From the NCBI GenBank assembly GCA_029210625.1, contig JARGFU010000012.1, forward strand, positions 1 through 64,000: a stretch of DNA of 64,000 bases, given 5' to 3'. The stretch is from Deltaproteobacteria bacterium (GTDB lineage: Bacteria > Myxococcota > Myxococcia > SLRQ01). The notes under the pieces were generated by a model that saw nothing but the letters and a program-made list of their open reading frames with translations, did not search any database and was not told the DNA's origin. A program made the translations under genes and the position numbers. This document shows positions 25,662-45,977 of this stretch, piece after piece; within the stretch, counting starts at the first letter, position 1, and each line of letters begins with the position of its first letter.

Positions 25662-26980
25662 CACGCCACCACCTTCTTCAGCTCGTCGAGGAGGGAGGGA
25701 TCGTCGGCGAAGGGATCGAGCACGTAGTTCACGCGCTGCGCCGGCTTGCCGAGCTCGACGTTGGCGGCCAGGTCGAAGGGCGTGCCCACCAGGATGAGGT
25801 CGCACTCGACCGCGTCGATGGTGGCCTTCAGATCCGCGATCTGCTCCTCGAAGTAGCCCATGGCGGGCAGGAGCTTTCCGATGTGCGGGTAGGTCTCGTA
25901 GGTGGTCTGGATGCTGCCCTTGAAGTGGGGCCGCGGATCGACGACCTCGGCGGCGCCGAAGGTCTCGGCGGCCACCTGGGCGGCGCCGAAGGTCATGCCG
26001 CCGTGGGTCAGGGTCGGGCCGTCCTCGATGCAGAGGACCTTCTTGCCCTTCACGGCGTCGGGGTCGGCCACGCTCACCTTGGAGGCGCAGCGGATGACGG
26101 TCGCCGAGGGGTTCAGCTTCGCGGCCGCGTCCTGCACCGCCTTCACCTCCTCGGCCGTCGCCCGCTCGGCCTTGTTGATGCAGATGACCTGGGCGGCGCG
26201 GAAGTTCACCTCGCCGGGGAAGTACTTCGTCTCGTGGCCGGCCCGCAGGGGGTCGGCGACGGTGATCCAGAGGTCGGGGGTGTAGAAGGGCCAGTCGTTG
26301 TTGCCGCCGTCCCAGATCAGGACGTCACACTCCTCCTGGGCCTGCTCGAGGATCGCGCCGTAGTCGACGCCGGCGTAGATGACGTTCCCCTCCTTGATGT
26401 GGGACTCGTACTCCTCCCGCTCCTCGAAGGTGCACTCGTGCTCGTCCATGTCCTCGACCTTGGCGAAGCGCTGGACGGCCTGCTTGGCGAGATCGCCGTA
26501 GGGCATCGGGTGGCGGACCGCCACGACCTTCTTGCCCATGTCCTGGAGGGCCTTGGCGACCCAGCGGGAGGTCTGGCTCTTGCCGCAGCCGGTGCGCACG
26601 GCGCAGACGGCGATGACCGGCACCTTGGCCTTCAGCATCGTGTCCCGGGTGCCCAGCAGCCGGAAGTCGGCGCCGGCGGCGTTGCAGCGGGCCGAGATGT
26701 GGCCGACGTGGTCGTAGGAGACGTCGGAGTAGCTGAAGACGCACTCGTCGACCTTCAGGTCGGCGATGACCTTCTCCAGGTCGTCCTCGGGGAAGATCGG
26801 GATGCCCTCGGGGTAGAGCTTGCCGGCCAGCGCCGCGGGGTAGCGGCGGTCGTCGATGTTGGGGATCTGGGCAGCGGTGAAGCCAACGACCTCGTGGGTC
26901 TCGTCCTCGCGGAAGACCACGTTGAAGTTGTGGAAGTCGCGCCCCGCGGCGCCGATGATCAGAACCCTGCGTCGAGTCAT
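25661..26980 (-). CDS. Cyclic 2,3-diphosphoglycerate synthetase-like P-loop protein
   Basis: A 439-residue protein. The N-terminus has a Rossmann-like start RRVLIIGAAGRDFHNFNVVF, and around residue 135 a P-loop AVRTGCGKSQTSRW. Further motifs are DVLIWDGGNNDWPFY, INKAERA and LCIEDGPTLTHGGM. This matches proteins annotated as cyclic 2,3-diphosphoglycerate synthetase, known in thermophilic methanogens, but many bacterial members lie beside carbamate kinase and carbamoyltransferase genes and their activity is untested. The ATG at 26980 is chosen because homologues begin at the Rossmann strand. It forms a two-gene operon with argF. Confidence 0.8.
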   Translation of the reverse strand: MTRRRVLIIGAAGRDFHNFNVVFREDETHEVVGFTAAQIPNIDDRRYPAALAGKLYPEGIPIFPEDDLEKVIADLKVDECVFSYSDVSYDHVGHISARCNAAGADFRLLGTRDTMLKAKVPVIAVCAVRTGCGKSQTSRWVAKALQDMGKKVVAVRHPMPYGDLAKQAVQRFAKVEDMDEHECTFEEREEYESHIKEGNVIYAGVDYGAILEQAQEECDVLIWDGGNNDWPFYTPDLWITVADPLRAGHETKYFPGEVNFRAAQVICINKAERATAEEVKAVQDAAAKLNPSATVIRCASKVSVADPDAVKGKKVLCIEDGPTLTHGGMTFGAAQVAAETFGAAEVVDPRPHFKGSIQTTYETYPHIGKLLPAMGYFEEQIADLKATIDAVECDLILVGTPFDLAANVELGKPAQRVNYVLDPFADDPSLLDELKKVVA

Positions 26981-27074
26981 ACCTGGCCTCCTTGGCTTCG
27001 TTGGTCCCCCCCGGACGGGTGGGACACGGCCGCCCGGTATAGCACAGGGCCGAGGGAGTGCTAAGGTGCGCCCC

Positions 27075-28046
27075 ATGCGAGACAAGTCACCGGAATCAGG
27101 GGCCCAGACGGTCGTCGTGGCGATGGGCGGCCACGCCTTCATCCAGCCCGGCGAGCGCGGCACCATCCACGATCACGAGAAGAACGCCAAGGAGATCTGC
27201 GTCCAGCTGATGTCCCTGGTGGAGCGCGGCTACCACCTGATCATCACCCACGGGAACGGCCCCCAGGTCGGCAGCCTGCTGATCCAGGCCGAGCGCGCCC
27301 GGGACGAGGTCCCCCCCTTCCCCCTCGACGCCAAGGTCGCCGAGACCGAGGGAGGCCTCGGCTACATCCTCCAGCAGGCCCTGCTCAACGAGCTGCGCCG
27401 CCGGGACATCCGCCGCTACGTGGTGACCATGGTGACCCAGGTGCTGGTCGACGAGAACGATCCCGCCTTCCAGAACCCCACCAAGCCCATCGGCCCCTTC
27501 ATGTCGAAGGAGGACGCCGAGGCCCGCAAGGCCGAGTTCGGCTGGGACATCGTCGAGGACTCGGGCCGCGGCTGGCGGCGGGTGGTCCCCTCCCCGAAGC
27601 CGAAGCGCGTGATCCAGCGCGACATGATCCGCGACGCGGCCCTCCAGGGGCACATCGTGGTCGCCGGCGGCGGCGGCGGCATCCCCATCAAGAAGAACGA
27701 CGACGGGGACTACGAGGGCGTCGAGGCCGTCATCGACAAGGACCTGACCTCCAGCGTGCTGGCCGCCAACATCGGGGCCGACCTGCTGATCATCCTCACC
27801 GCCGTGGACGCGGTCTACCTCGGCTTCAACACCCCCGAGCAGGAGGCCCTCGGGGCCGTCACCCTGCGGGAGTGCAAGGAGCACATCGATCGGGGGCACT
27901 TCCCGCCCGGCTCGATGGGCCCCAAGGTCGAGGCCATCTACAACTTCCTGAAGGCCGGCGGGCGCCGGGGGCTCATCACCAGCCCCGACAAGCTGATCGC
28001 GGCGCTCGACGGTGAGGCCGGGACCCACTTCGTCGGACATATCTAG
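27075..28046 (+). CDS. arcC: Carbamate kinase
   Basis: A 323-residue amino-acid-kinase-family enzyme: carbamoyl phosphate plus ADP gives ATP, ammonia and CO2. Motifs present are VAMGGHAFIQPGERGT, IITHGNGPQVG, the VAGGGGGIPI loop and DKDLTSSVLAANIGADLLIILTAVD. The length fits the family (about 310). It is divergent from the argF operon; the 94-bp region between contains a TATAGC box at 27038-27043 but no matching -35 at normal spacing. With ornithine carbamoyltransferase it could make ATP from citrulline, yet no arginine deiminase or antiporter gene is present here. Confidence 0.94.
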   Translation: MRDKSPESGAQTVVVAMGGHAFIQPGERGTIHDHEKNAKEICVQLMSLVERGYHLIITHGNGPQVGSLLIQAERARDEVPPFPLDAKVAETEGGLGYILQQALLNELRRRDIRRYVVTMVTQVLVDENDPAFQNPTKPIGPFMSKEDAEARKAEFGWDIVEDSGRGWRRVVPSPKPKRVIQRDMIRDAALQGHIVVAGGGGGIPIKKNDDGDYEGVEAVIDKDLTSSVLAANIGADLLIILTAVDAVYLGFNTPEQEALGAVTLRECKEHIDRGHFPPGSMGPKVEAIYNFLKAGGRRGLITSPDKLIAALDGEAGTHFVGHI

Positions 28047-31440: not shown

Positions 31441-31477
31441 GGGGGTTCGTCCCATGGTGCTCCTGCGGGAGGAACGA

Positions 31478-32917
31478 GTGAGCACACCCTTCGACTTCCT
31501 CGAGGCTGCGCGAGAGCTGATCGCGGCGCCCAGCGTCTCGGCGATGGGCAACGACGCCGCCCTGGCGGTGGTCCGGCCGCTGGCCGAGCGCTGCGGGCTC
31601 ACGACCTCGATGCTGCCGGGCGAGTACCTCGGCCGCACCCACCACAACCTGCTCTGCGCCCACCCGGGCAGCCCCGGCGCCGACGGTGGCCTGCTCCTCC
31701 TGACCCACTCGGACACCGTGGACCCCGGCGCGCTCGAGGCCTGGACGGCGACCGGGAACGATCCCTACCGCCTCACCCGCGACGGGGACCGGCTCTACGG
31801 GCTGGGCACGGCGGACGTGAAGCTCGACGCCCTCTGCAAGCTCCTGGCCCTCGATCGGGTGCGCGAGCTGAAGCTCACCCGCCCGGTGCACTTCCTCTTC
31901 TCCTTCGCCGAGGAGGTGGGGTTGGTCGGCGCCCGGCACTTCATGGCCGATCCGCCGATCCGCCACGCCTTCGCCTCCGCCGGCGAGCCGAGCGAGCTGA
32001 CGATCATCCACGCCCACAAGGGCTACCTGGTCATCCGGGTGCAGCTCACCGATCCCGGCGCCCCGCCCCTCTCGGGCGCGCGGCGCGAGCGCACCTTCGA
32101 GGGCCAGAGCGCCCACTCGAGCACCCCTCACCTGGGCGACTCGGCCATCGAGCGCCTCCTCGACGCCCTCCACCCGGGGCCCGGCCCGGCCGGCTCCCAC
32201 CCCGACGAGGGCGTCGCCCGAAGCCAGGGGGCCCGGGGGCTGGACGCGGCGGCCGTGCGCGCCGCCCTCGGCGGTGGCGTGGCGGCGGTGCGAGGCGGCG
32301 AGGTCGCCAACCGGGTCGCCGATCGCTGCACCCTCGAACTGGACGGCGTGGGCCCCGACGGGAGCGCCCTGCTCGCCGCCGCGGCCGAGCTGCGCGCCCG
32401 CTGGTGCGCCCTCGTCGCCGGCCTCGAGCCGACCGAGGACCGGCGCTTCGATCCTTACCACTCGGTCTACAACCTCGGCCGGATCCGGCTCGAGGCCGAC
32501 GAGGAGGGCCGGGCCTCCCTCGACGTCCTCTACGACTGCCGGATCCTCCCGGGCCAGGACGCCGAGGCCGCCGCCCACGCCTTCGAGCGCGAGATCGAGG
32601 CGGTGGCCCGGGCCGGCGCCTTCGACTGGAGCGTCGAGGTGGACCGCGACTCGCGGGCCCTCTCGGCGCCTCCGGACGGCCCCCTGATCGAGGCGGCCAT
32701 CCGGGCTGCCCGCCAGGTGGGCACCGACCCCACGCCGAGGACCAAGGCCACCAGCACCGAGGCCGGGGTCCTCGCCAGCCGGGGCGCCCAGGCGATGGTC
32801 TTCGGCGCCGGCGTCTCCGTCGGCAACGTCCACAAGCCCAACGAGCACAACCTCCACTCCCAGCTGCTCACCGCCATCGACTTCTACGAGGCGCTGATCC
32901 GCGAGCTGTGCACCTGA
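31478..32917 (+). CDS. M20-family metallopeptidase / deacylase
   Basis: A 479-residue dizinc hydrolase of the ArgE/DapE/carboxypeptidase G2 group. Metal and catalytic residues are seen in LLLTHSDTVDPG (His, Asp), LGTADVKLDAL (bridging Asp), FAEEVGLVG (catalytic Glu and zinc Glu), and VHKPNEHNLHSQL at the C-terminus. The lid/dimer domain includes IHAHKGYLVIRV and has an unusually long insert around 190-280. The GTG at 31478 has GGGAGG 5 nt upstream and is preferred over an ATG at 31454. Substrate is probably an N-acyl amino acid or dipeptide. Confidence 0.88.
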   Translation: MSTPFDFLEAARELIAAPSVSAMGNDAALAVVRPLAERCGLTTSMLPGEYLGRTHHNLLCAHPGSPGADGGLLLLTHSDTVDPGALEAWTATGNDPYRLTRDGDRLYGLGTADVKLDALCKLLALDRVRELKLTRPVHFLFSFAEEVGLVGARHFMADPPIRHAFASAGEPSELTIIHAHKGYLVIRVQLTDPGAPPLSGARRERTFEGQSAHSSTPHLGDSAIERLLDALHPGPGPAGSHPDEGVARSQGARGLDAAAVRAALGGGVAAVRGGEVANRVADRCTLELDGVGPDGSALLAAAAELRARWCALVAGLEPTEDRRFDPYHSVYNLGRIRLEADEEGRASLDVLYDCRILPGQDAEAAAHAFEREIEAVARAGAFDWSVEVDRDSRALSAPPDGPLIEAAIRAARQVGTDPTPRTKATSTEAGVLASRGAQAMVFGAGVSVGNVHKPNEHNLHSQLLTAIDFYEALIRELCT

Positions 32918-32921
32918 TGCC

Positions 32922-34421
32922 ATGAGCACACCCGACCTCACCCCCCTCCCCTACCTCGGCAACTACGTCGGCGGCCGCTTCGTGAAGGTCAGCCCCTCGA
33001 AGGCGGACGGCCACCTCCTCTCGGTCTCCCCCCGGGACGTCACCGACGAGATCTGGCGGGGCACCTTCCGCCTCGAGGCCATCGAGGAGGCGGTGGAGGC
33101 GGGCCGCAAGGCCCGGCAGGGCTGGGGCGAGCTCCCCCTGGCGGGGCGCCTCAAGATCCTGGGCAAGATCAAGGCCCAGCTGCGCAATCACCGGGAGGAG
33201 CTGGTCCTGCTCCTGGCCCGCGAGGCTGGCCTGCCCCTCTGGGAGGGAGAGGCCGAGGTGAAGCGGGCCATCGAGCTCTTCACCCTCCTCGAGGGCCCCG
33301 CCCGGCAGCAGCTGGAGCAGCTCACCTCCCTCTCCGAGGATCTCGAGCCGGTGCCGCTGGGGCTGGTGGCGGTCCTGCCCGACTTCGCCTCTCCCCTCCT
33401 CGATCTGCACCGCGGCGTGCTGGCGGTGCTCGCGGCGGGGAACGTCGCGATCGTCCACCCCCACGCCCTCACCCCCGGCCTGGGCCAGCTCTACGCCCGC
33501 ATCCTCGACGAGGCCGATCTGCCCCGGGGGGTCTTCGCGCTGGTGCAGGGGGACTCGGATCTCCGGGCGGCGCTCGCCGGCCACCCGGGGCTGGACGGAG
33601 TCCGGCTCACCTCCTCGGCGGGCATGGCGCGGCGGGTCGCCCGCCTCGTCCAGGAGCAGCCCTGGAAGACCCTGCGGATGCGGACGCCGGGCAAGAACCC
33701 CCTCCTGGTGCTGCCGGGCGCGGACCTCGAGCGGGCCGCGCGCGACGCGGCGCTCGGCGCCTACCTCACCGCGGGGCAGCGCGCGACCTCCACCCGCTGG
33801 GTGGTCGTGCACCGCAAGCTGGTGAGCAAGTTCGTGCCCGCCCTCGACGCCTGCGCCACCCGCTTCCGGGTGGGCGACCCCCTCGATCCGGAGACGGTGG
33901 TGGGGCCCCTGGCCTCCGAGGCCCTTCGCCGCGCCTTCCTGCGCCACGTGCGCCTCGGCGAGAACGAGGGCAACCGGGTGGTGCGCGCCACCGGCATCGT
34001 CGGGGCCGATCCGGTGGGCTGGTACGTGGGCCCGGCCATCCACGAGGTGCCCACCATCCTCGAGGACTCCCGCTACCAGATGTACCCGGTCCTCGGCCCG
34101 GACCTGCCCATCTTCAGCGTACGCAGCACGGAGGAGGCCTTCGCCCTGGTGGGCTCCCTCGACTCCCTCCTCTGCGCCTCCGTACACACCTCGGACGCCA
34201 AGCTCTGGAACGCCGCCCGGCACGCCCTCTCGGTGGGCCGCCTCATCCAGAACGGCCCGACCACGGCGCGGGTTGCCGCGCTGCCCATGCCCAGCGGCGC
34301 GCAGGGCCGACGGAGCCTCCTCGAGGGCTTCTTCCTCCTCACCGAGTGGGTGAGGCCCAGCGTGCGGATCCCCGCCGACCGGCAGCAGGACGACACGCCC
34401 GTGCCGCCCGGCCTCGACTAG
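32922..34421 (+). CDS. Aldehyde-dehydrogenase-superfamily protein lacking catalytic Cys and Glu
   Basis: A 499-residue protein aligning end to end with succinylglutamate-semialdehyde dehydrogenase (AstD)-type enzymes. The nucleophile motif, normally GQRCTCAR, reads GQRATSTR (Ala288). The general base motif, normally LALEMGGNNP, reads LRMRTPGKNP (Arg254). The 34-residue spacing of these positions equals that of Glu268 and Cys302 in ALDH2, so the alignment is firm. The NAD-binding and oligomer regions look retained. It is therefore a predicted pseudoenzyme, with a possible regulatory or binding role. It starts 4 nt after the M20 peptidase stop, so the two are co-expressed. Confidence 0.88.
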   Translation: MSTPDLTPLPYLGNYVGGRFVKVSPSKADGHLLSVSPRDVTDEIWRGTFRLEAIEEAVEAGRKARQGWGELPLAGRLKILGKIKAQLRNHREELVLLLAREAGLPLWEGEAEVKRAIELFTLLEGPARQQLEQLTSLSEDLEPVPLGLVAVLPDFASPLLDLHRGVLAVLAAGNVAIVHPHALTPGLGQLYARILDEADLPRGVFALVQGDSDLRAALAGHPGLDGVRLTSSAGMARRVARLVQEQPWKTLRMRTPGKNPLLVLPGADLERAARDAALGAYLTAGQRATSTRWVVVHRKLVSKFVPALDACATRFRVGDPLDPETVVGPLASEALRRAFLRHVRLGENEGNRVVRATGIVGADPVGWYVGPAIHEVPTILEDSRYQMYPVLGPDLPIFSVRSTEEAFALVGSLDSLLCASVHTSDAKLWNAARHALSVGRLIQNGPTTARVAALPMPSGAQGRRSLLEGFFLLTEWVRPSVRIPADRQQDDTPVPPGLD

Positions 34422-34425
34422 GGGA

Positions 34426-35754
34426 TCAGCGGGTCCCGGGAGGCGGGGCCCCGACGACCTTCACCTGCGCGCCGCGCAGCGCGGGCGCCACCGAGCGGAG
34501 CTGACCGGCCAGGGAGTCGCCGGCCCCCAGATCGAGGTAGACGCCCTCGGCCGGGGCCTGGCCCCGCGAGGGATCGACCCGGATCCAGCCCTTCTCGGTG
34601 CGCACCTCGACCCAGGTGTGGGGCCAGAGGCGGGTGGGCTCGGCGGGGTCCTGGAAGAGCCCGGTGCGGCGGCGGGCGTCGAGGCCGAGGAGGGGCGCCG
34701 ACGCCAGGAAGACGGCGGCGGCCTCGTTGCAGTCGCCCCGCCCGCGGGCCAGCGCGGTCTCGGGCTCGGCCTCCCAGAGGCCGGCGCCGTCCACCTCGGG
34801 GTCGAGCTGACCGTCGATCAGCTGCGCCAGGGAGGCGGCCCGCTCGGTGATGCTCTGCCCCTTCACCCGGGCGACCAGGCCGCGGACCTGCGGACCGGCG
34901 GAGGGCTGGAGCCTCCGGGTGGGGGCCTCGTCGGTGCCGGCCCCGCAGAGGGGCCCGGCCGCGGGAAGGGTGACCTCCCGGTCGGCGCAGGCGAGCCCCG
35001 GCCAGTCCTCCGGCGGGGACAGGCGCAGGCGGACGCCGGGGACCAGGGTGCCCTCGACCACCACCGAGCCGCCGGTGAGGTCGGCCATCCGGCCCACGTC
35101 GTTGCCGGCCTCGATGCCCTCGGCGGCGTAGACCAGCCCGATGTCCACCAGATCCAGCGCGTCGGGGAGGGCCGCGCCGGGGGCCCAGCGGGAGCGCACC
35201 CGCACCCCGAGCTCCTCGGTCTCGGCCCAGCCGCGCTCGTCGCGGGCCTGCCGCAGGATGACCCAGCCCAGGTTCCCGTCGGGCAGGTCGAAGACCCGCC
35301 GGCGGGCGCCGACCGAGCCGCTCTCGATGAGCCGCCGGGGGGCCTCGAAGAGCGCCTCGACCCCGGCCGCCGAGTCCACCGGCACCCGCTCGACCCGGTC
35401 ACCGCGGCGCACCACCATCGCGCCGGCGCGGGCGTCCCAGCGGGCGCTCACCGCCTGGCGCTGGCCGCCGGAGATCCGCACGGCCCAGGCCGAGAGCAGC
35501 ACCCCGTCCTTGACCCGCACCTCCTCGTGGAGGACCCGCTCGCTGGTCTTCCCGTCGCGGGAGGAGGTCAGCTTGCTGTGGTGCGTGTAAGTGGTCGTCC
35601 CACCCGAGTCCCGCCGGTAGGTGAGGACGGCGTGTCCGACCTCGCTGCCCTGGAGGCGGACGGAATAGCGCCGCGTCTCCCCCGCCTCGCTCGCGGCGGG
35701 CAGGAGGAGCAGGAGGGTACAAAGAAGTAGCGCTGGCCGGCGGTTGTATGCCAT
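34426..35754 (-). CDS. Secreted transglutaminase-like cysteine protease
   Basis: A 442-residue exported protein with signal peptide ([16 protein letters not shown]). The C-terminal third is a transglutaminase-like domain with the complete triad: Cys in [16 protein letters not shown], His in [10 protein letters not shown] and Asp in [10 protein letters not shown]. The N-terminal 250 residues are beta-rich, as in families where a beta domain precedes the core. It probably cleaves or cross-links peptide bonds in the periplasm. The start codon is 44 nt from that of the divergent chemoreceptor gene, so their promoters must overlap. Confidence 0.85.
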
Positions 35755-35797: not shown

Positions 35798-38700
35798 ATG
35801 GTACAGCGCTTCCAACGCCTGTCCACGCTTCTCACCGTCCTCGCCGGGGCGGCGGGGGCGGGAACCGCCCTTCTGGTGGGCGGCGGGGCCCTGGGCTTCA
35901 TCCTGGGCGTCGTCGCCGGCCTGGCCGTCGGTATCGCCGGCACCTGGGGCATCGCCTCCTCCCTCCAGGAGCGGGCGAGCAGCCTGGATCTGGAGAAGCT
36001 GGCCGAGGGGGACCTCTCCCACGAGCCCAGCGACCCCCAGATCGGCGAGGCCGTCCGGGCCATCCGGGGCACCCTGGGGCGCCTCCAGGGCACCACCGGC
36101 GCCGTGAACGTGGCCGCCCAGGAGGTCTTCGAGGGCACCACCCGCCTGCTCCAGGCCGCCCGGCACCAGGCCCTGACCGTGGAGAGCACCCTGACGGCGG
36201 CGGGCGCCATCGGGGACGCCCTGGCGACCTCCGAGATGACCGTCCAGGAGATCGAGACCCGGGCCGGTGAGGCCGGCACCGCCCTCGAGCGGATGGACCT
36301 CTCCATCGACGCCGTGGGCACCGCCCTCGACTCCCTCTACGACTTCGTCCAGCGCACCCGCGAGGTGATGGAGGAGATGGGCCAGTCCATCGACCGCTTC
36401 GTGGACAGCGGCCACCACCTCTCGGGCTTCGTCACCGAGACCGACGACTACGTCCAGGTCGTCGCCGATGGCATCGCCCGGGTGCGGGCGCTGGCCGAGG
36501 ACACCGGCCGCCAGGCGATGGAGGTCAGCGAGCGCGCGGACCGGGGCCACCAGCTGGTCTCGGACGCGGTGCAGGGCCTCTTCGTCCTCGAGGACACCGT
36601 GCAGCGGGCGGCGAACATCGTCGACATCCTCGGCGCCCGCTCCCAGGCCATCGGCAAGATCGTCGAGATCATCGAGGAGATCGCCGACCAGACCAACCTC
36701 CTCGCCCTCAACGCGGCCATCCTCGCCGCCCAGGCCGGAGAGCACGGCCGGGGCTTCGCGGTCGTGGCCGAGGAGATCCGGGACCTCGCCGAGCGGACCG
36801 GGCGCAGCACCCGCGAGATCGGCAACCTCGTCACCGAGGTCACCAGCCAGGTCTCCACCGCGGTGAAGGTGATGGAGGAGGGCCGAGTGCAGGCCTCGGC
36901 GGGCCTCTCCCTCGGCGAGCGGGCCTCGCAGGCCCTCGACGAGATCCGGACCACCGTCTCCGCGACTGCGACGGCCGTGGCCGAGACGGTGAAGGAGACC
37001 TCCCTCCTCGAGGAGGAGGGCCAGCGGGTCTCCCGGGCCTCGCGGCAGGTCTCGTCCCAGGTGGAGAACATCTCGGTGGAGGCGGTCCGCCAGGCCGAGG
37101 TGGGCAACCAGCTCGCCGACCGGACCGAGCAGATGACCCTGCTCACCCGGCAGACCCAGCAGGCCGCGGAGGAGCAGGCCGCCAACGGACGCCTGGTGAG
37201 CGAGGTCGTCGCCCGGCTGCGCGAGGGCATCGCCGCGGTGCGCGAGGCCCACCGCCTCTCCAGCGACGCCAGCCAGCGGGTGCGCACGGCGAGCACCGAC
37301 GTGGGCTCGGACGCCGAGGGGCTCATCGGCGTCGCCTCCGACCTCTCCCGCACGGCGCGCCGCCTGCAGGAGGTGGCCGGGACCATCACCGCCGACCTCG
37401 ACACCTTCCGCCTCCCCTCGGCCCGCCATGGCGGCGTCCTGCGGGTGGCGATGGTCGAGCCCAACCTCCTCCACGAGACCGAGGGCCTGGACCCGCTGTG
37501 CCTGCGCGGAGTGCGCGAGGCCATCGTCGCCTCTCTGGTCCACTCGGGGCTGCTGCGCCCCGGCCCCCAGGCCGAGATCCGGCCGGCGCTGGCCCGCAGC
37601 TGGCAGGTCGAGCGGGAGGGGCGGGTCTACCGCTTCCACCTCCAGGGCGGGCTGCGCTTCCACGACGGGACGACCTGCGACGCCGCCGCGGTGAAGGCCT
37701 CGCTCCTGCGCCACCTCGAGCCCGGCCGCGAGGGGCCGGTGACCGACCTCTTCCTCGACCTCATCGGAGCTCGCCACTACCGCGCCGGAGAGAGCAGCGA
37801 CGTCGAGGGCATCCGGGTGGTCGACGATCACGAGCTGGTGATCGAACTCAAGGAGCCCCGGGCCTTCCTCCTCCAGCTGATCTCCAGCCCCGACTGCTAC
37901 GTCTCCCGCCGCACCGAGGCCGGGGTCCAGGGGTTGGGCCCCTTCCGGATCGACTCCTCGGTGCCGGGCCGCAGCCTGAAGCTGGTCCGCTTCGAGGAGG
38001 GCCTGCGCGCCAACTCGATCCCCCTGGACACGATCGAGCTGCAGCTGGGCCACGCCAACCCGGCGGCCGCCTGCGCCGCGGTCGCCGACGGCCTCGCCGA
38101 CATCGCGCTGGAGATCCCCGCCGACCGGCTGGCCAACAAGAAGACGGTCGACGGCCTCGAGCTGCGCTCCCACCCCATCCTCTCCACCGAGATGATCTTC
38201 TTCGGCTGCGGGCGGGCGCCCCTCGATCGCCCGGCCGTGCGCCGGGCGCTGCGGATGGCCCTCGACATCGAGGGCTTCGCCCGGCGCCTCCCGGGCCGCC
38301 CGGGCCTGGCCACCGGCCTCATCCCCCGCGGCCTCCCCGGCCACGCCGCGGACCTGCCTCCGCACCGGCTCGATCTCGAGCAGGCCCGCAAGATCCTCGA
38401 GGAGGAGGGCGTCACCGGCCTCGAGCTGGCCTGGCCCTACGCCACCTTGCGCGACGCCGGCTGGATCGAGGCGACCCGCACCCTGCTGGCCCCCCTGAAG
38501 GAAATCGGTGTTCAGATCCGCGAGGAGCCGATGCCCGCCGACCTCTACTGGCGGCGCGTCGGCGAGGGCGACTTCGATCTGCTGCGCCAGGGCTGGGTCG
38601 CCGACTACCCCGACGCGGACTCCTTCTTCTACTTCCTCGTCCACTCCTCGGGGCAGAAGCCGATCTTCGTCGACTACGGCAACGACGCCGTCGATCGCCT

Positions 38701-38908
38701 CACCGACGAGGCCCGGGCCACCGTCGATCCCGACCTTCGCCACCAGCTCTACCAGCGCGCCGAGCGCGAGCTCTACGAGGACCCCTGCCTCGTTCCCCTC
38801 GTCTACGGGCGCGACGCCGTCCTCATCCGCGACGGCGTCCACGGCGTCACCGTCCTCCCGACCGTGCCGTCCATCCGCCTCGACGACGTCTGGCTCTCCG
38901 AGAGCTGA
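35798..38908 (+). CDS. Methyl-accepting chemotaxis signalling domain fused to an oligopeptide-binding-protein (SBP_bac_5) domain
   Basis: A 1036-residue fusion. Residues about 8-55 form two hydrophobic segments joined by a very short turn. A HAMP-like and long helical region follows, with the chemoreceptor hairpin tip [34 protein letters not shown]-type sequence near 290-325 (key: [16 protein letters not shown]). From about 545 comes a full ABC-type periplasmic peptide-binding domain: [65 protein letters not shown]. No signal or membrane segment separates the two, so the ligand domain should lie in the cytoplasm. An in-frame ATG at 35753 is an alternative start. Confidence 0.88.
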
Positions 38909-40819: not shown

Positions 40820-43800
40820 CTAGAGCGTGCTGCCGAAGATGTCGTACATCGCGCGCTCGATGTTCATCCACTCGACCTCGTTGGCGATCTGCCAGGTCCA
40901 GTCACTCTCGCACTCCGCGTCGCCACCGCAGGCCTGGTAGCTGGCGAGGAGCTGGTTCGCCCGCTGGATCATCTTGGTGGCAGCGTTCGCCTCGGCGTTC
41001 TGGGCCTGCAGCGCGGCGTAGACCACGCCGGTGGTGGGATCGGAGAAGGTGATCACGTCGAAGCCCGGACCGGCCTCCAGGGTCTCACCCGAGCCCAGCC
41101 GGAAGATGTGGCGATCGTCCGGGAAGTTCAGGCTGTAGCTGGAGGTGAAGGAGCTCATGCCGAAGAGCAGGGCATAGAAGCGGTTGGTGAAGTTGATCTC
41201 GGGCACGACCACCGGGTCGAGGTCGATGAAGCTCGAGCCCTCGGGGTAGATGTCGAGCCAGTCGAAGGCCGGCCGCTGCACGACCGCCTGGTTGCCGCCG
41301 GTGCCCGTGAAGCGCGGGGCGAAGGAGCGGTACTCCTCCCCGATGATGCCGTTGTAGACGCGGGTCAGCTCGTTGTCGAAGACCAGGTAGTAGGGGATCA
41401 GGTACGAGCTGAAGTCCGACTGGGTGTTGGCGCCGCGGACCGTGGCCGAGCTCTGGGAGAGGGCCAGCAGGGCCGCGTAGTAGTCCCAGAAGTGCGACGC
41501 CTCCTGCGGGTAGTACCAGTAGTAGTAGCCGCGCTGGTAATCGTAGCGGGTGTAGGGACGCCGGGCGTCGTTGCCGCGATCCAGGTAGAGGTCCTCACCC
41601 GAGCGGTGGCTGTAGGTCCAGGCGTACTGGTACTGGTTGGTGGCCGCGTCGTAGTCGTAGGAGCCGTAGGCCGGCATCGAGAGGACCTCCATCAGGAAGT
41701 TGAAGCCCTCGAAGGCGCCCATGGCCTTGTAGTTGGCCTGGATGTTGTCGGCCTGGGTGTAGAACTGGTCGAAGAGCCAGGTCTGGTAGAAGTTCGGCAT
41801 CATGTTGAAGTAGCGGCCCGCGGAGCGCGCGTAGACGTCGTAGGGGCTCCAGGCGCGCTTGTTCCGGCGGAAGTTGTTGAACCAGTAGTAGTTCCGCCAG
41901 CTCTGCTGCACGTTGCGGGACTGCTCCCACATGTCGGAGCCCTCGTCCCACCGGTGGCAGGAGGCGTCGACGCCGACCCACTCGTCGGAGCAGAACATGT
42001 AGGGCACCTCGAGGAGGCGGCTGGTGTCGCCCGCCTCGCGGGAGGCCTTCACGGCCGCAGCCGGCATGACGATCCGGTCGTAGAGCCGCTCGATGCCGGT
42101 GTCGATGTTGCCGTCGCCCATGAGGACGGGGACCCAGGTGTAGTGGATGTCGTCCAGGAACTGGGAGTAGGCCAGCGAGCCGCGCTCCTCGTAGATGGTG
42201 TCCATGAAGTTGTTCCGGAAGCCGCTGCCGACCTCGCGGAAGACCTCCACCGAGTCACCGTAGGCGTAGAGGATGGCCGCCTCGTCGTAGGGCCCGAGGC
42301 CGTGGATGTCGCTGTTGAAGGCGCGGCCGTAGTCCATGATCGAGGAGTACTGGAACTCCCGCATCTTGCCGGCGATCTGGCTGCTGGTGAGCTCGCTCAT
42401 GTCGAAGAGGTCACCGATGGTGGAGAGGCTGGTGTTCAGGTTCTCCTTGCGCAGCTCCCAGTACTCCGGGAAGAAGTTGATCGCGTCGTAGGAGCCGTTG
42501 AAGTTGTGGCGCAGGCCCATGGTGTGGCCGACCTCGTGCTCGGTCACCGCCCGCAGGATGGAGTTGCGCAGCCACTGGTACATCTGCTCACGGTCCATGC
42601 CGCTGCCAGCGAGGTCCTGGGCGAGGCCGAAGATCGAGGGATCCTCGAAGTCGGCGAGCCAGATGCTGTTCTTGGCGGCCCAGTCCTGACGGATCTGCTG
42701 GTCGCGCAGCAGCTTGTCGGCGTCGAGGGTGTAGGGCTTCGCTGCGGCGAGGAGCTCGGGGGTCATGCCGTTCTCGACCAGGTCCATGTTCTTGAACTTC
42801 TGGGCCACCACGGCGCGGATCTCGTCGTTGATCATGTAGGACTCGAAGGGGGTGCCCTCGATCCGGCGCAGCCGCTGCATCGAGTCCTCCTTGAGGGTCT
42901 CGAGGCCGAACTGCTTGAGCGCCTCGATCTTGGCGAGGTGCTGCGGCTTCATGAGGTTCTTCGCGCCGTCCAGGATCGGCTTCTCGAGGACGTCCGCGAG
43001 GCCGGCGCGCTCGGCCTTGGCGCGGGGATCGGTGCGGTCGCGGCCGGCGATGATCTGGTCGCGGATGTCGTCGCCGGTGATCAGCTCGTCGATGGTGAGC
43101 TCGCCGTTGAGGGCGTCGACGATCTCGAGGCCGCGCTGGGCGTAGGTGTCGATCGGGGCGCCGTAGATGTAGGCCTGGCCGGCGACGATCACGCCGGTCT
43201 CGGGATCGACCGAGGAGGGGCCGTAGCCCAGGGGCGAGGAGAGCTGGGGCTGGTCGACCCAGTACATGAAGTTGTGGCGCAGATCGCCGATCTTCGCGTG
43301 GCCGTCCTCGTTGTAGTCGATCTGGAAGAGGCCGGTGTTGAGGTAGTTGCCGTTGGCGTCCTCGTAGGGGAACTGCGCGAGGACGGTCTCGACCGGCTTC
43401 ATCTGGGCGGCGGCCACGGCGCGGGCCAGGGCCTTCGACCAGCCGCGGGCGGTCCACTCGGCCGCGCCGACGAGCTCCTTGGGCCAGTTGGCCGAGAGGG
43501 CGTAGACGATGGGCTTGGGGGTCCGCAGGTTCTTCGGCATCACGCTGCCGTCGGCGTTGAAGTCGGTCTCCCAGATGTGGTGGATGTTGGCGAGGAGGAT
43601 CTGGCCCTCGTCGGTGCGGCCGAGGCGGCGGTCGTAGGTCTCACGCTCGGTGCGGAAGTAGCCGAACTTCACCATGTCCTTGTCGTCGTAGAAGACCGGA
43701 TCGAAGGTGCGGGTCTCGGGGATCTTCAGGATCGAGGTGCGGACCATGGCCTCACCGGAGGCGCAGTCGTAGGCCTCGCCGATGAGCCAGCAGGCCGGCA

Positions 43801-44575
43801 CGCCGTAGTCCTCGTCGATCCAGTAGGTGGCCGGATCGATGTAGCCGCGGGAGACCACGTCGATGTAGGCCGGCGGGGTGCGATCCGAGAAGCCGGGGTC
43901 GGTGGGATCGACGATGACCGCCTCGCCCTCGGCGGTCTCCATCCGGAAGGCCCACTCGCCGCCCGCGCTCTCCTGCACGTACTCCCAGGTGCCCATGTCG
44001 GTGGCGTTGTCGTTCGACGACTCCATCAGGTTCTGGGAGAAGTCGACCCGCATGTACTCGCGGTCGTACCAGTGCCGGTCGCTCATGTTCTCGGTGATGA
44101 CGTTGCTCTGCTCACCGGTCGCCGGGTTGTACTGGCGCTGGATGTCGAAGTGGCTCTGGACGCGGTAGGCCGCGATCGGCGCGTCCTTGTAGCCGTTGTC
44201 GATGTAGTAGCTGTCGTCGAGGATCGGGTTACCCTCGGCGTCCCGGCGGATGTCGGTGTCGTCGATGGTCTTCCCCTCGTGATCGACCTTCGGGTTCATC
44301 CCGGGGAAGAGCTCGTAGGAGCGGTAGCCGATCAGGTAGTGCTCGGTGATCTCCCACTTCACCTTCTCGGTGTTCAGGGTCATGCCCACGAAGGAGAAGC
44401 TGACCGAGGGACCCACGTCCGCGATGGTCTGGCGGATGTACCACTCGCCCTCGAAGTCGGACTTCTTCACGTAGTTGGGCTGGACCCGGTTGATGTCGCC
44501 CACGTTCTGGGCGCAGCCGAGCGCGGTCAGGCTGGCCAGCACGGCGAGAGAGATGATGCGGGAAAGAGACTTCAT
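40820..44575 (-). CDS. Giant zinc-dependent metalloprotease lipoprotein (metzincin)
   Basis: A 1251-residue exported lipoprotein (lipobox TALGC, Cys at about 21). It holds a full metzincin signature TEHEVGHTMGLRHNF near residue 680 (HExxHxxGxxH) and a likely Met-turn in YSSIMDYG about 65 residues later. The overall arrangement fits the large zinc-dependent metalloprotease group often labelled by DUF5117/DUF4953 domains. The start at 44575 has AAAGGAGC 7 nt upstream. It is preceded by an outer-membrane barrel gene on the same strand, 61 nt away, and ends at a strong terminator, so these two genes form one operon. Confidence 0.9.
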   Translation of the reverse strand: MKSLSRIISLAVLASLTALGCAQNVGDINRVQPNYVKKSDFEGEWYIRQTIADVGPSVSFSFVGMTLNTEKVKWEITEHYLIGYRSYELFPGMNPKVDHEGKTIDDTDIRRDAEGNPILDDSYYIDNGYKDAPIAAYRVQSHFDIQRQYNPATGEQSNVITENMSDRHWYDREYMRVDFSQNLMESSNDNATDMGTWEYVQESAGGEWAFRMETAEGEAVIVDPTDPGFSDRTPPAYIDVVSRGYIDPATYWIDEDYGVPACWLIGEAYDCASGEAMVRTSILKIPETRTFDPVFYDDKDMVKFGYFRTERETYDRRLGRTDEGQILLANIHHIWETDFNADGSVMPKNLRTPKPIVYALSANWPKELVGAAEWTARGWSKALARAVAAAQMKPVETVLAQFPYEDANGNYLNTGLFQIDYNEDGHAKIGDLRHNFMYWVDQPQLSSPLGYGPSSVDPETGVIVAGQAYIYGAPIDTYAQRGLEIVDALNGELTIDELITGDDIRDQIIAGRDRTDPRAKAERAGLADVLEKPILDGAKNLMKPQHLAKIEALKQFGLETLKEDSMQRLRRIEGTPFESYMINDEIRAVVAQKFKNMDLVENGMTPELLAAAKPYTLDADKLLRDQQIRQDWAAKNSIWLADFEDPSIFGLAQDLAGSGMDREQMYQWLRNSILRAVTEHEVGHTMGLRHNFNGSYDAINFFPEYWELRKENLNTSLSTIGDLFDMSELTSSQIAGKMREFQYSSIMDYGRAFNSDIHGLGPYDEAAILYAYGDSVEVFREVGSGFRNNFMDTIYEERGSLAYSQFLDDIHYTWVPVLMGDGNIDTGIERLYDRIVMPAAAVKASREAGDTSRLLEVPYMFCSDEWVGVDASCHRWDEGSDMWEQSRNVQQSWRNYYWFNNFRRNKRAWSPYDVYARSAGRYFNMMPNFYQTWLFDQFYTQADNIQANYKAMGAFEGFNFLMEVLSMPAYGSYDYDAATNQYQYAWTYSHRSGEDLYLDRGNDARRPYTRYDYQRGYYYWYYPQEASHFWDYYAALLALSQSSATVRGANTQSDFSSYLIPYYLVFDNELTRVYNGIIGEEYRSFAPRFTGTGGNQAVVQRPAFDWLDIYPEGSSFIDLDPVVVPEINFTNRFYALLFGMSSFTSSYSLNFPDDRHIFRLGSGETLEAGPGFDVITFSDPTTGVVYAALQAQNAEANAATKMIQRANQLLASYQACGGDAECESDWTWQIANEVEWMNIERAMYDIFGSTL

Positions 44576-44636
44576 CGCGTTGCTCCTTTGGGGGGTCGTG
44601 CGATCAGAGGACGAATCGAAAAAATAGAGTCGAAGG

Positions 44637-45977
44637 CTAGAACGAGCGGCCGACGCGGAGGCTGAAGCCCGTGCGCTGCAGGCTGGAGTCCCAGAAGGGG
44701 AAGCGCAGCACACGGTTCTCGTCGTCGAGGTCCGGGCCCAGGTAGCGGAAGAGGGGACCGCCGGTCATGAGGTTGGCGGAGAGCATGTACATGCCCGGCA
44801 GGCGGTAGGTGAGGCCGAGGCCGCCCATCATGGCGTCGGAGGGGGTGATCGTGCTGTCGACGACCAGGTTGCCCTTCGAGTCGACGATCTGGGAGGAGAA
44901 CTCGTCGACGGGGATGGGATAGCTCCAGCCCCGGGAGAGGCCGAAGTTCAGCATGCCGCCGAGCTTGTCGGTGAACTGGTAGCTCACGCCCAGGTTCAGG
45001 CCGATGTTGGCCATGCCGTTGTTGTCGCCGGTGGCGCACTGGGAGTCGTTGACCGCCTCGTTGCCGCTCTCGCGGATCTGGCAGGCCCAGACCCCGTCCC
45101 GCCACTGCTGCCGGATGACCGGCGAGGTGTAGCGGTTGAAGGGCAGGCCGCCGGTCACCGAGAGGTTGGCCGAGAGCTTGTCGTCGAGGAAGCTGCGGCT
45201 GGCGGCGACCGAGGCGCCCAGGGAGAAGAGCTGGGTGGCGGTGATCGACATCCGGGAGAGGCCGAGGCCCACCGAGGCCGAGCCCGAGACGTTGATCCCG
45301 GTGAGCTTCTCGTCCTTGTAGAGGGAGCCGTGGGCGAGACCGAGGGTGGGGTCGCCGTAGTTGAAGCGCCGCAGGAAATCGCTCTTGCTGGTGCTGCCCG
45401 GGGTGGTCAGCTCGTAGGAGAAGCCCCAGTTGCCCGAGGCCGTCACCTGCTCCTTCAGCTGGTAGCTGCCACCCACCGAGACCGAGGGGATGAAGGTGGC
45501 CTGGCTGCTGCGCACATAGCGGGTCGGGTGGAAGAGCATCATGCTCATCGAGGTGCCGACGCCCACGTTCACCGACCAGGGCTTGGTCGGACCCTCGGCC
45601 TTCGCGTCGCCCTCGGGCTTCGCCTCGACCTCGGGGGCCGCCTCGGCCACCTCGGCCTCAGCGACCGCCTCGACCGTCTCCACGGCCACCGCCTCGCCCG
45701 CGGCCGCCTCCTCGACCACCGCCGCCGGCTCGGCCTCGGCCTCGGCCTCGGCCTCGGCCTCAGCCTCAGCCTCAGCCTCAGCCTCGGTGGCCTCCTCGGT
45801 GGCGGCCTCCTCGGTGGCGGCCTCCTCGGTGGCGGCCTCCTCGGCCGCAGGGGCCTCCTCGGTGGCGGCCTCCTCGGAGGGGGTCGCCTCGGAGGTCTCC
45901 TCGGCGTACGCCGGGGCGGCCAGGGCCAGGGCGGCCAGGAGGGCGATGGAGGTCGTCAGGCTCGGGAGGTCTCGCAT
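44637..45977 (-). CDS. Outer-membrane beta-barrel protein with Glu/Ala repeat linker
   Basis: A 446-residue outer-membrane protein. After a signal peptide (ALALAAPAYA) comes an acidic low-complexity linker of about 110 residues made of TEEAA repeats and a run of Ala-Glu pairs. From about residue 135 alternating hydrophobic strands begin (WSVNVGVGTSMSMMLF), ending in the typical terminal strand GFSLRVGRSF with C-terminal Phe recognised by BamA. The mostly repetitive N-terminus would reach into the periplasm. It is encoded upstream of the metzincin, so it may export or display that protease; this is inferred from position only. Confidence 0.82.
   Translation of the reverse strand: MRDLPSLTTSIALLAALALAAPAYAEETSEATPSEEAATEEAPAAEEAATEEAATEEAATEEATEAEAEAEAEAEAEAEAEAEPAAVVEEAAAGEAVAVETVEAVAEAEVAEAAPEVEAKPEGDAKAEGPTKPWSVNVGVGTSMSMMLFHPTRYVRSSQATFIPSVSVGGSYQLKEQVTASGNWGFSYELTTPGSTSKSDFLRRFNYGDPTLGLAHGSLYKDEKLTGINVSGSASVGLGLSRMSITATQLFSLGASVAASRSFLDDKLSANLSVTGGLPFNRYTSPVIRQQWRDGVWACQIRESGNEAVNDSQCATGDNNGMANIGLNLGVSYQFTDKLGGMLNFGLSRGWSYPIPVDEFSSQIVDSKGNLVVDSTITPSDAMMGGLGLTYRLPGMYMLSANLMTGGPLFRYLGPDLDDENRVLRFPFWDSSLQRTGFSLRVGRSF
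45727..45846. repeat. In-gene tandem repeats (GGCCTC hexamer and 15-bp units)
   Basis: The linker of the barrel protein is encoded by about ten hexamers of GGCCTC/AGCCTC type (45727-45786) and by three 15-bp units CTCCTCGGTGGCGGC (about 45792-45840). Both keep the reading frame and code for Ala-Glu and Glu-Glu-Ala-Ala-Thr. Such tracts can change length by slippage. Confidence 0.75.

Follow-up and report, generated by a model that had tools for sequence, protein, structure and literature searches.

We refer to the whole 64,000-nucleotide stretch of myxococcotal DNA analysed here as the window. It carries a gene whose product joins the signalling hairpin of a chemoreceptor to an oligopeptide-binding domain. 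The gene, its upstream neighbours and the features of its product (positions within the window) are as follows.

31454..32917, plus strand: M20 deacylase, acetylornithine-deacetylase-like (below the equivalog cut-off)
32922..34421, plus strand: aldehyde dehydrogenase, distantly AstD-like (succinylglutamate-semialdehyde dehydrogenase; below the NCBIfam cut-off)
34429..35754, minus strand: transglutaminase-like protein with a hydrophobic, signal-like N-terminus (Pfam PF01841), divergent neighbour of the next gene
35798..38908, plus strand: mcpK-like gene, 1036 aa, with two transmembrane (TM) segments, chemoreceptor hairpin and C-terminal SBP_bac_5 domain
35819..35959, plus strand: pair of hydrophobic segments at aa about 8-30 and 31-54, forming a membrane hairpin that lacks a periplasmic domain (hydropathy, 15 orthologues)
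35960..36091, plus strand: putative HAMP-like stretch, aa 55-98, with invariant A69, D72 and L73 (alignment)
36080..37411, plus strand: antiparallel coiled-coil hairpin, aa about 95-538, about 63-64 heptads (periodicity, paralogue alignment)
36515..37057, plus strand: Pfam MCPsignal match, aa 240-420
36686..36772, plus strand: kinase-contact tip, aa 297-325 (29 residues; invariant columns)
37403..37417, plus strand: junction TFRLP, aa 536-540, where the native C-terminal end of the MCP passes directly into the SBP domain (invariant residues, paralogue ends)
37427..38905, plus strand: complete SBP_bac_5 (OppA/DppA-like) domain, aa 544-1036 (Pfam, PDB alignment, AF2, Foldseek)
38603..38605, plus strand: Asp936, the equivalent of OppA Asp419 (counted out on the alignment)

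The mcpK-like gene is a single uninterrupted frame, with the stop codon ending at 38908. Translation probably begins at the ATG at 35798, because in-frame starts further upstream (from 35744) would overlap the divergent transglutaminase-like gene that starts at 35754; 43 bp separate the two divergent starts. Pfam finds MCPsignal (E 6e-36) and SBP_bac_5 (aa 593-953, profile positions 1-366 of 368, E 9e-59) in the 1036-aa protein, and no other domain. NCBIfam and PDB searches agree with this assignment: the closest solved structures are cytoplasmic fragments of methyl-accepting chemotaxis proteins (MCPs) for aa 208-473 and family 5 binding proteins for aa 542-1036. Both Pfam domains are present in all 15 aligned orthologues. 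An earlier note on this DNA had read the locus as a fusion of the order TM-TM, MCPsignal, SBP_bac_5, with a complete OppA/DppA-like domain after the hairpin; the single frame, the Pfam matches, the nearly full-length SBP_bac_5 profile, the hydropathy and the orthologues bear out both points. A separate SBP gene beginning at an internal in-frame start, M553, was considered and rejected, since the other orthologues have no Met there.

The SBP domain alone (aa 520-1036) was modelled with confidence by AF2 (42 sequences; pLDDT 92.2, pTM 0.89), and with this model the top 50 Foldseek matches were all family 5 SBPs (best E 5.9e-43, TM-score up to 0.84), including OppA, DppA, MppA, AapF and an OppA2-arginine complex. 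The structure modelling that the earlier note had proposed thus succeeded for this domain and not for the full-length protein, whose model is weak (pLDDT 62, pTM 0.43); where the SBP stands with respect to the rod is therefore derived from sequence only. In OppA, Asp419 binds the amino group of the peptide ligand. The equivalent position 936 holds this Asp, an anchor common to many SBP_bac_5 proteins, in 15 of the 16 family members compared and Asn in the other, and the same stretch holds four invariant, family-specific residues, D939, D941, S950 and Q953. The hinge motif GxGP(F/Y)R is also kept. These features favour a retained site for an amino-bearing compound, and SBP_bac_5 domains have been assigned mostly to peptides (PMC9602780). 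The suggestion that the domain senses internal peptides or muropeptides is thus consistent with the pocket Asp as far as peptides and amino acids in general are concerned, and gains nothing for muropeptides specifically. Predicted to be soluble and confidently modelled, the domain is amenable to ligand screening.

The SBP could, alternatively, have given up small-molecule binding and become a structural or protein-docking module for localisation or array packing, with an ABC transporter, another Che protein or the nucleoid as imaginable partners. It does diverge more than the hairpin tip, many positions that it strictly conserves, D941 and Q953 among them, differ from those of OppA, and no transporter genes adjoin mcpK, whose neighbours are AST-like, transglutaminase-like and VTT genes. 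We, however, consider this role unlikely: the full clamshell fold is retained together with the hinge and the amino-anchor Asp, and the receptor has no periplasmic sensor, so without sensing by the SBP the membrane hairpin would be the only input domain left.

Peptide-binding proteins of SBP family 5 are usually regarded as periplasmic parts of importers. The domain described here shares with OppA and DppA the full fold, the amino-anchor Asp (OppA D419) and the hinge motifs, but it lacks a signal peptide or lipobox and adjacent transporter genes, and lies covalently within a receptor. Since export signal and transporter are missing, it is not the SBP of an importer. A C-terminal SBP_bac_5 sensor within a signalling protein is known from the transcription factors SgrR and DsvR (PMC13060122), the output of which is a DNA-binding domain rather than a chemoreceptor hairpin. 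Elsewhere in the same genome, the frame L004:250-2973 (plus strand; C6:259455-262178) encodes a cyclase-like N-terminus, recognised by eye as resembling class III adenylate/guanylate cyclases, then one TM segment and SBP_bac_5; the SBP of this protein would lie outside.

We turn to the signalling hairpin. Averaged over the orthologues, hydropathy repeats every 3.5 residues without a change of phase between aa about 75 and 540, and aa 78-545 contain no indels among the orthologues save one compensated 4-residue shift; the region is therefore a continuous antiparallel coiled coil, each arm of which has about 215-225 residues. The kinase-contact tip is kept in 15 of 15 orthologues and matches MCPs in the PDB. 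PDB alignment alone is ambiguous on the heptad class, for which we used the periodicity and an alignment to paralogues. The own-genome paralogue L063 (G000:C14), whose periplasmic sensor lies between TM segments at 29 and 221, aligns without gaps to aa 89-538 of the window protein (450 residues) and stops, at EVQRFRT, one residue past the equivalent of aa 538. A second receptor of this genome, L069, ends in KRFTLPLGED, five residues beyond the junction. Likewise, the McpJ-like receptor L109 of G024, taken as a Myxococcus-group genome (the genus being judged from its MCP set), is gapless over 415 residues and ends in EVRRFRV at the junction site. That site reads RFxLP in the mcpK-like family, with F537, L539 and P540 invariant. 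McpJ-type receptors such as L063 and L109 therefore share with the window protein a gapless hairpin of equal length, the AAQAGEHG tip and the RF end site, but they carry a periplasmic sensor between their two TM segments and nothing past the RF end. Since the paralogues end at or just past the junction, an ordinary receptor acquired the SBP immediately after its native C-terminus and lost its periplasmic sensor. The labels McpJ-like and DifA-like, used here and below, reflect length, membrane segments and class rather than direct comparison with the M. xanthus sequences. G024 also encodes an Mcp7-like cytoplasmic receptor, L110 (G024:C1:1395149-1395973, minus strand; 861-aa frame, no TM segment), in which about 430 residues behind the tip resemble a continuous coiled coil, without a recognisable sensor.

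A receptor of this composition is already on record in M. xanthus. McpK (MXAN_6456) was listed as an orphan of 1048 aa with an MCP domain at 246-463, a solute-binding domain, three TM segments, class 44H and no HAMP match (PMC3945109 Table 1). The window protein has the same domain set, a similar length (1036 aa), likewise no HAMP match and an orphan gene; judged by sequence comparison, the gene plainly belongs to the same family, as an orthologue of McpK, with identity to MXAN_6456 itself deduced from length and domains. Orthologues of the Myxococcus group have 1049 aa, the window protein being 36% identical along its whole length, and their loci share with the window a transglutaminase-like neighbour and a VTT/DedA-like gene. 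The statement of the earlier note that no receptor with this order had been described therefore calls for amendment: McpK had been listed with both domains, but its domain order and topology were not discussed in 2014, and no ligand was given (PMC3945109). A literature search on SBP_bac_5 with MCPsignal, and on MXAN_6456, returned no match. Beyond the 2014 listing, the present analysis adds the site at which the two parts are fused, the exchange of sensors with respect to McpJ-type paralogues, the length of the hairpin and what it implies for the array partner, the distribution of the family and a sensor model of high confidence.

In place of three TM segments and class 44H, we derive for the family two TM segments, a C-terminal SBP placed in the cytosol and a hairpin estimated from periodicity and alignment at about 64 heptads, the same in the Myxococcus orthologues. 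This mismatch questions the published class, not the orthology with McpK. It also changes the choice of Che system to be tried with McpK. On the shared class 44H, it was proposed in 2014 that McpK signals via the Dif system together with DifA; both fall within Group 1 of the receptor phylogeny, along with McpB, McpJ and Mcp7 (PMC3945109). We sampled 28 chosen genomes, 14 with and 14 without McpK; because these are related, the counts are supportive only. A DifA-like receptor occurs in all 14 McpK-positive genomes, as this proposal would have it, but also in 11 of the 14 McpK-negative ones, whereas a McpJ-type receptor occurs in 14/14 and 4/14, respectively. The window hairpin exceeds that of the DifA-like receptor L068 by about 20 heptads; L068 and L115, the DifA-like receptor in G024, are 50.6% identical. 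The published table itself has DifA stop two residues past the MCP domain, while McpK and McpJ run at least 80 residues further (PMC3945109). Signalling through Dif together with DifA thus appears doubtful, and receptors of the McpJ/Mcp7 type would be likelier array partners than DifA, because the hairpin has about 64 heptads and not 44.

As to topology, the charges surrounding the two N-terminal segments fit a membrane hairpin with both ends inside (N-in/C-in), and hydropathy of the 15 orthologues reveals no recurrent membrane segment after these two. The stretch that follows has an invariant A-x-x-D-L motif; Pfam nevertheless reports no HAMP match in the window protein or the aligned orthologues. 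The topology prediction that the earlier note had called for thus returned only the two N-terminal segments, and its claims that neither an export signal nor a membrane segment separates hairpin from SBP, and that the SBP is consequently cytosolic, are supported, the latter by topology together with conservation of the arrangement in 15 of 15 aligned orthologues. Passage of the C-terminal hairpin arm through the membrane by an undetected segment, which would bring the SBP into the periplasm, is very improbable: the arm does terminate near the membrane, and family 5 SBPs are normally periplasmic, but none of the 15 orthologues has a hydrophobic segment between hairpin and SBP, which are joined by a short, conserved stretch of polar character (TFRLP..R.GG).

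The fusion is widespread among relatives. Over the full length (about 1000 aa) the window protein is 34-39% identical to its orthologues, and when 58 relatives were searched using just the SBP half, strong matches lay inside long frames in nearly every genome having one. A profile of the SBP half was then searched against 195 genomes of the phylum, orthologous rows being counted by hand, which gave 95 rows in 91 genomes, all of the same class; other proteins with the order TM-TM, MCPsignal, SBP_bac_5, for which the earlier note had proposed to search, are thus numerous. Open frames of at least 1045 aa contain 88 of the 95. Of the remaining seven, four (in G001, G107 and G150, plus one of the two copies in G104) are cut off by the end of a contig or located near the start of one, one has an internal TGA (G112), and the second G104 copy also falls outside such frames. 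In the copy of G055 (L054, G055:C4:208000-226000) the MCP and SBP halves lie in different frames, through either a sequencing error or a real frameshift. A copy in G157, split over contigs, was left out of the count. Members of the fused family, including the larger G157 piece, score at least 437 bits, and the next, ordinary SBP scores 237 bits, such proteins having frames of about 550-720 aa. Given this gap, the SBP subfamily has no free-standing member in the 195 genomes. Neither a frameshift or assembly error joining two genes, nor homologues existing only as two separate genes, was therefore found. Joining of two genes by a sequencing or assembly error, for which the frame change in the G055 copy could speak, has a negligible probability and is already refuted by the conservation of 88 intact frames in independent genomes and by the lack of free-standing relatives.

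Within the class, the family is restricted to families f1, f2, f5 and f9; it is absent from f4 and from other classes in the searched set, and the sole match in f3 (G088) is at the level of ordinary SBPs. Four genomes of genus g30 (G101, G102, G104 and G105) have two McpK copies each, so the fused receptor is duplicated within this genus. Full-length profile searches at strict cut-offs, under which convergent fusions might score below the cut-off, found no fusion in 399 Pseudomonadota genomes or in 151 genomes of the phylum of an Anaerolineales genome. A single-protein scan of genome contigs, of a sensitivity so low that Myxococcia orthologues were also missed, found ordinary SBPs and MCPs and no fusion.

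Two cytosolic sensors behind the signalling hairpin offer a comparison, the CZB domain of Helicobacter pylori TlpD, in which changes are passed on through the coiled coil as far as the tip (PMC12871147), and the hemerythrin domain of Desulfovibrio vulgaris DcrH (PMC9388753). The window protein shares with them a sensor after the hairpin, its cytosolic location being deduced from topology. Their sensors, however, are small helical metal- or oxygen-binding domains, in contrast to a two-lobed OppA-type clamshell of 490 aa; moreover, an N-terminal periplasmic or PAS sensor is missing here, and Pfam finds neither CZB nor hemerythrin in the window protein or the aligned orthologues. By analogy, the protein would work like receptors of the TlpD/DcrH type, presumably also in the direction of signalling, but with its different sensor it is not one of them.

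We propose that McpK is an orphan, membrane-anchored, long-hairpin receptor that lost its periplasmic sensor and gained a cytosolic OppA-type SBP, a reading to which we give a probability of about 0.7. The ancestor would have been an ordinary receptor of about 64 heptads with a periplasmic sensor, like the McpJ-type paralogue of the same genome. Having lost that sensor, it would have gained an OppA-type binding domain right behind its native C-terminus, keeping a short two-helix hairpin as its anchor in the inner membrane. Since the C-terminal arm starts at the kinase tip and leads back towards the membrane, the expected place of the binding domain is on the cytosolic side, next to the membrane at the base of the rod. 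McpK may join arrays with McpJ/Mcp7-type receptors of equal length, and the best reading of the conserved pocket is that it senses an amino-bearing ligand in the cytosol, probably a peptide or an amino acid.

Amino-acid starvation triggers myxobacterial development, and most mcp deletions in M. xanthus affect fruiting. The ΔmcpK strain probably had a fruiting defect, as judged by elimination from those parts of the original study that list mutants without a defect or with a motility defect (PMC3945109). More tentatively, and at somewhat less than even odds, moving the sensor from the periplasm to the cytosol would let the array read the internal pool of peptides or amino acids, perhaps linked to arginine, and couple nutrition to motility and development. 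If this is true, a cytosolic SBP in a conserved receptor gives the chemosensory array a direct route for sensing metabolism, and myxobacteria may be guided in their movement by an intracellular pool of nutrients or peptides, through a layout kept in about 90 related genomes.

The possible link to arginine comes from the gene neighbourhood. At 16 other loci, a transglutaminase-like gene is nearby in 14, AstA (arginine N-succinyltransferase) in 13 and a VTT/DedA-like gene in 10; L049 has AstA and a closer AstD relative on one side. Arginine or amino-acid status is thus a lead as to the possible signal, although the AST-like and other neighbour genes do not form one operon with mcpK. A carbamate kinase gene (26916-28043, plus strand; NCBIfam arcC above cut-off) lies near the AST-like genes, about 8 kb upstream of mcpK. 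On its other side, at 40823-44662 (minus strand), the window encodes a very large metallopeptidase-like protein (met-zincin, DUF4953), which is next to mcpK in G001 as well. No che genes lie beside mcpK in the window. Elsewhere in the genome, at C34:32857-34669, there are three adjoining CheW-domain matches, one of them in an 874-aa frame of CheA size, on a contig with no MCP match; the 874-aa frame may encode a kinase that serves orphan receptors, McpK among them.
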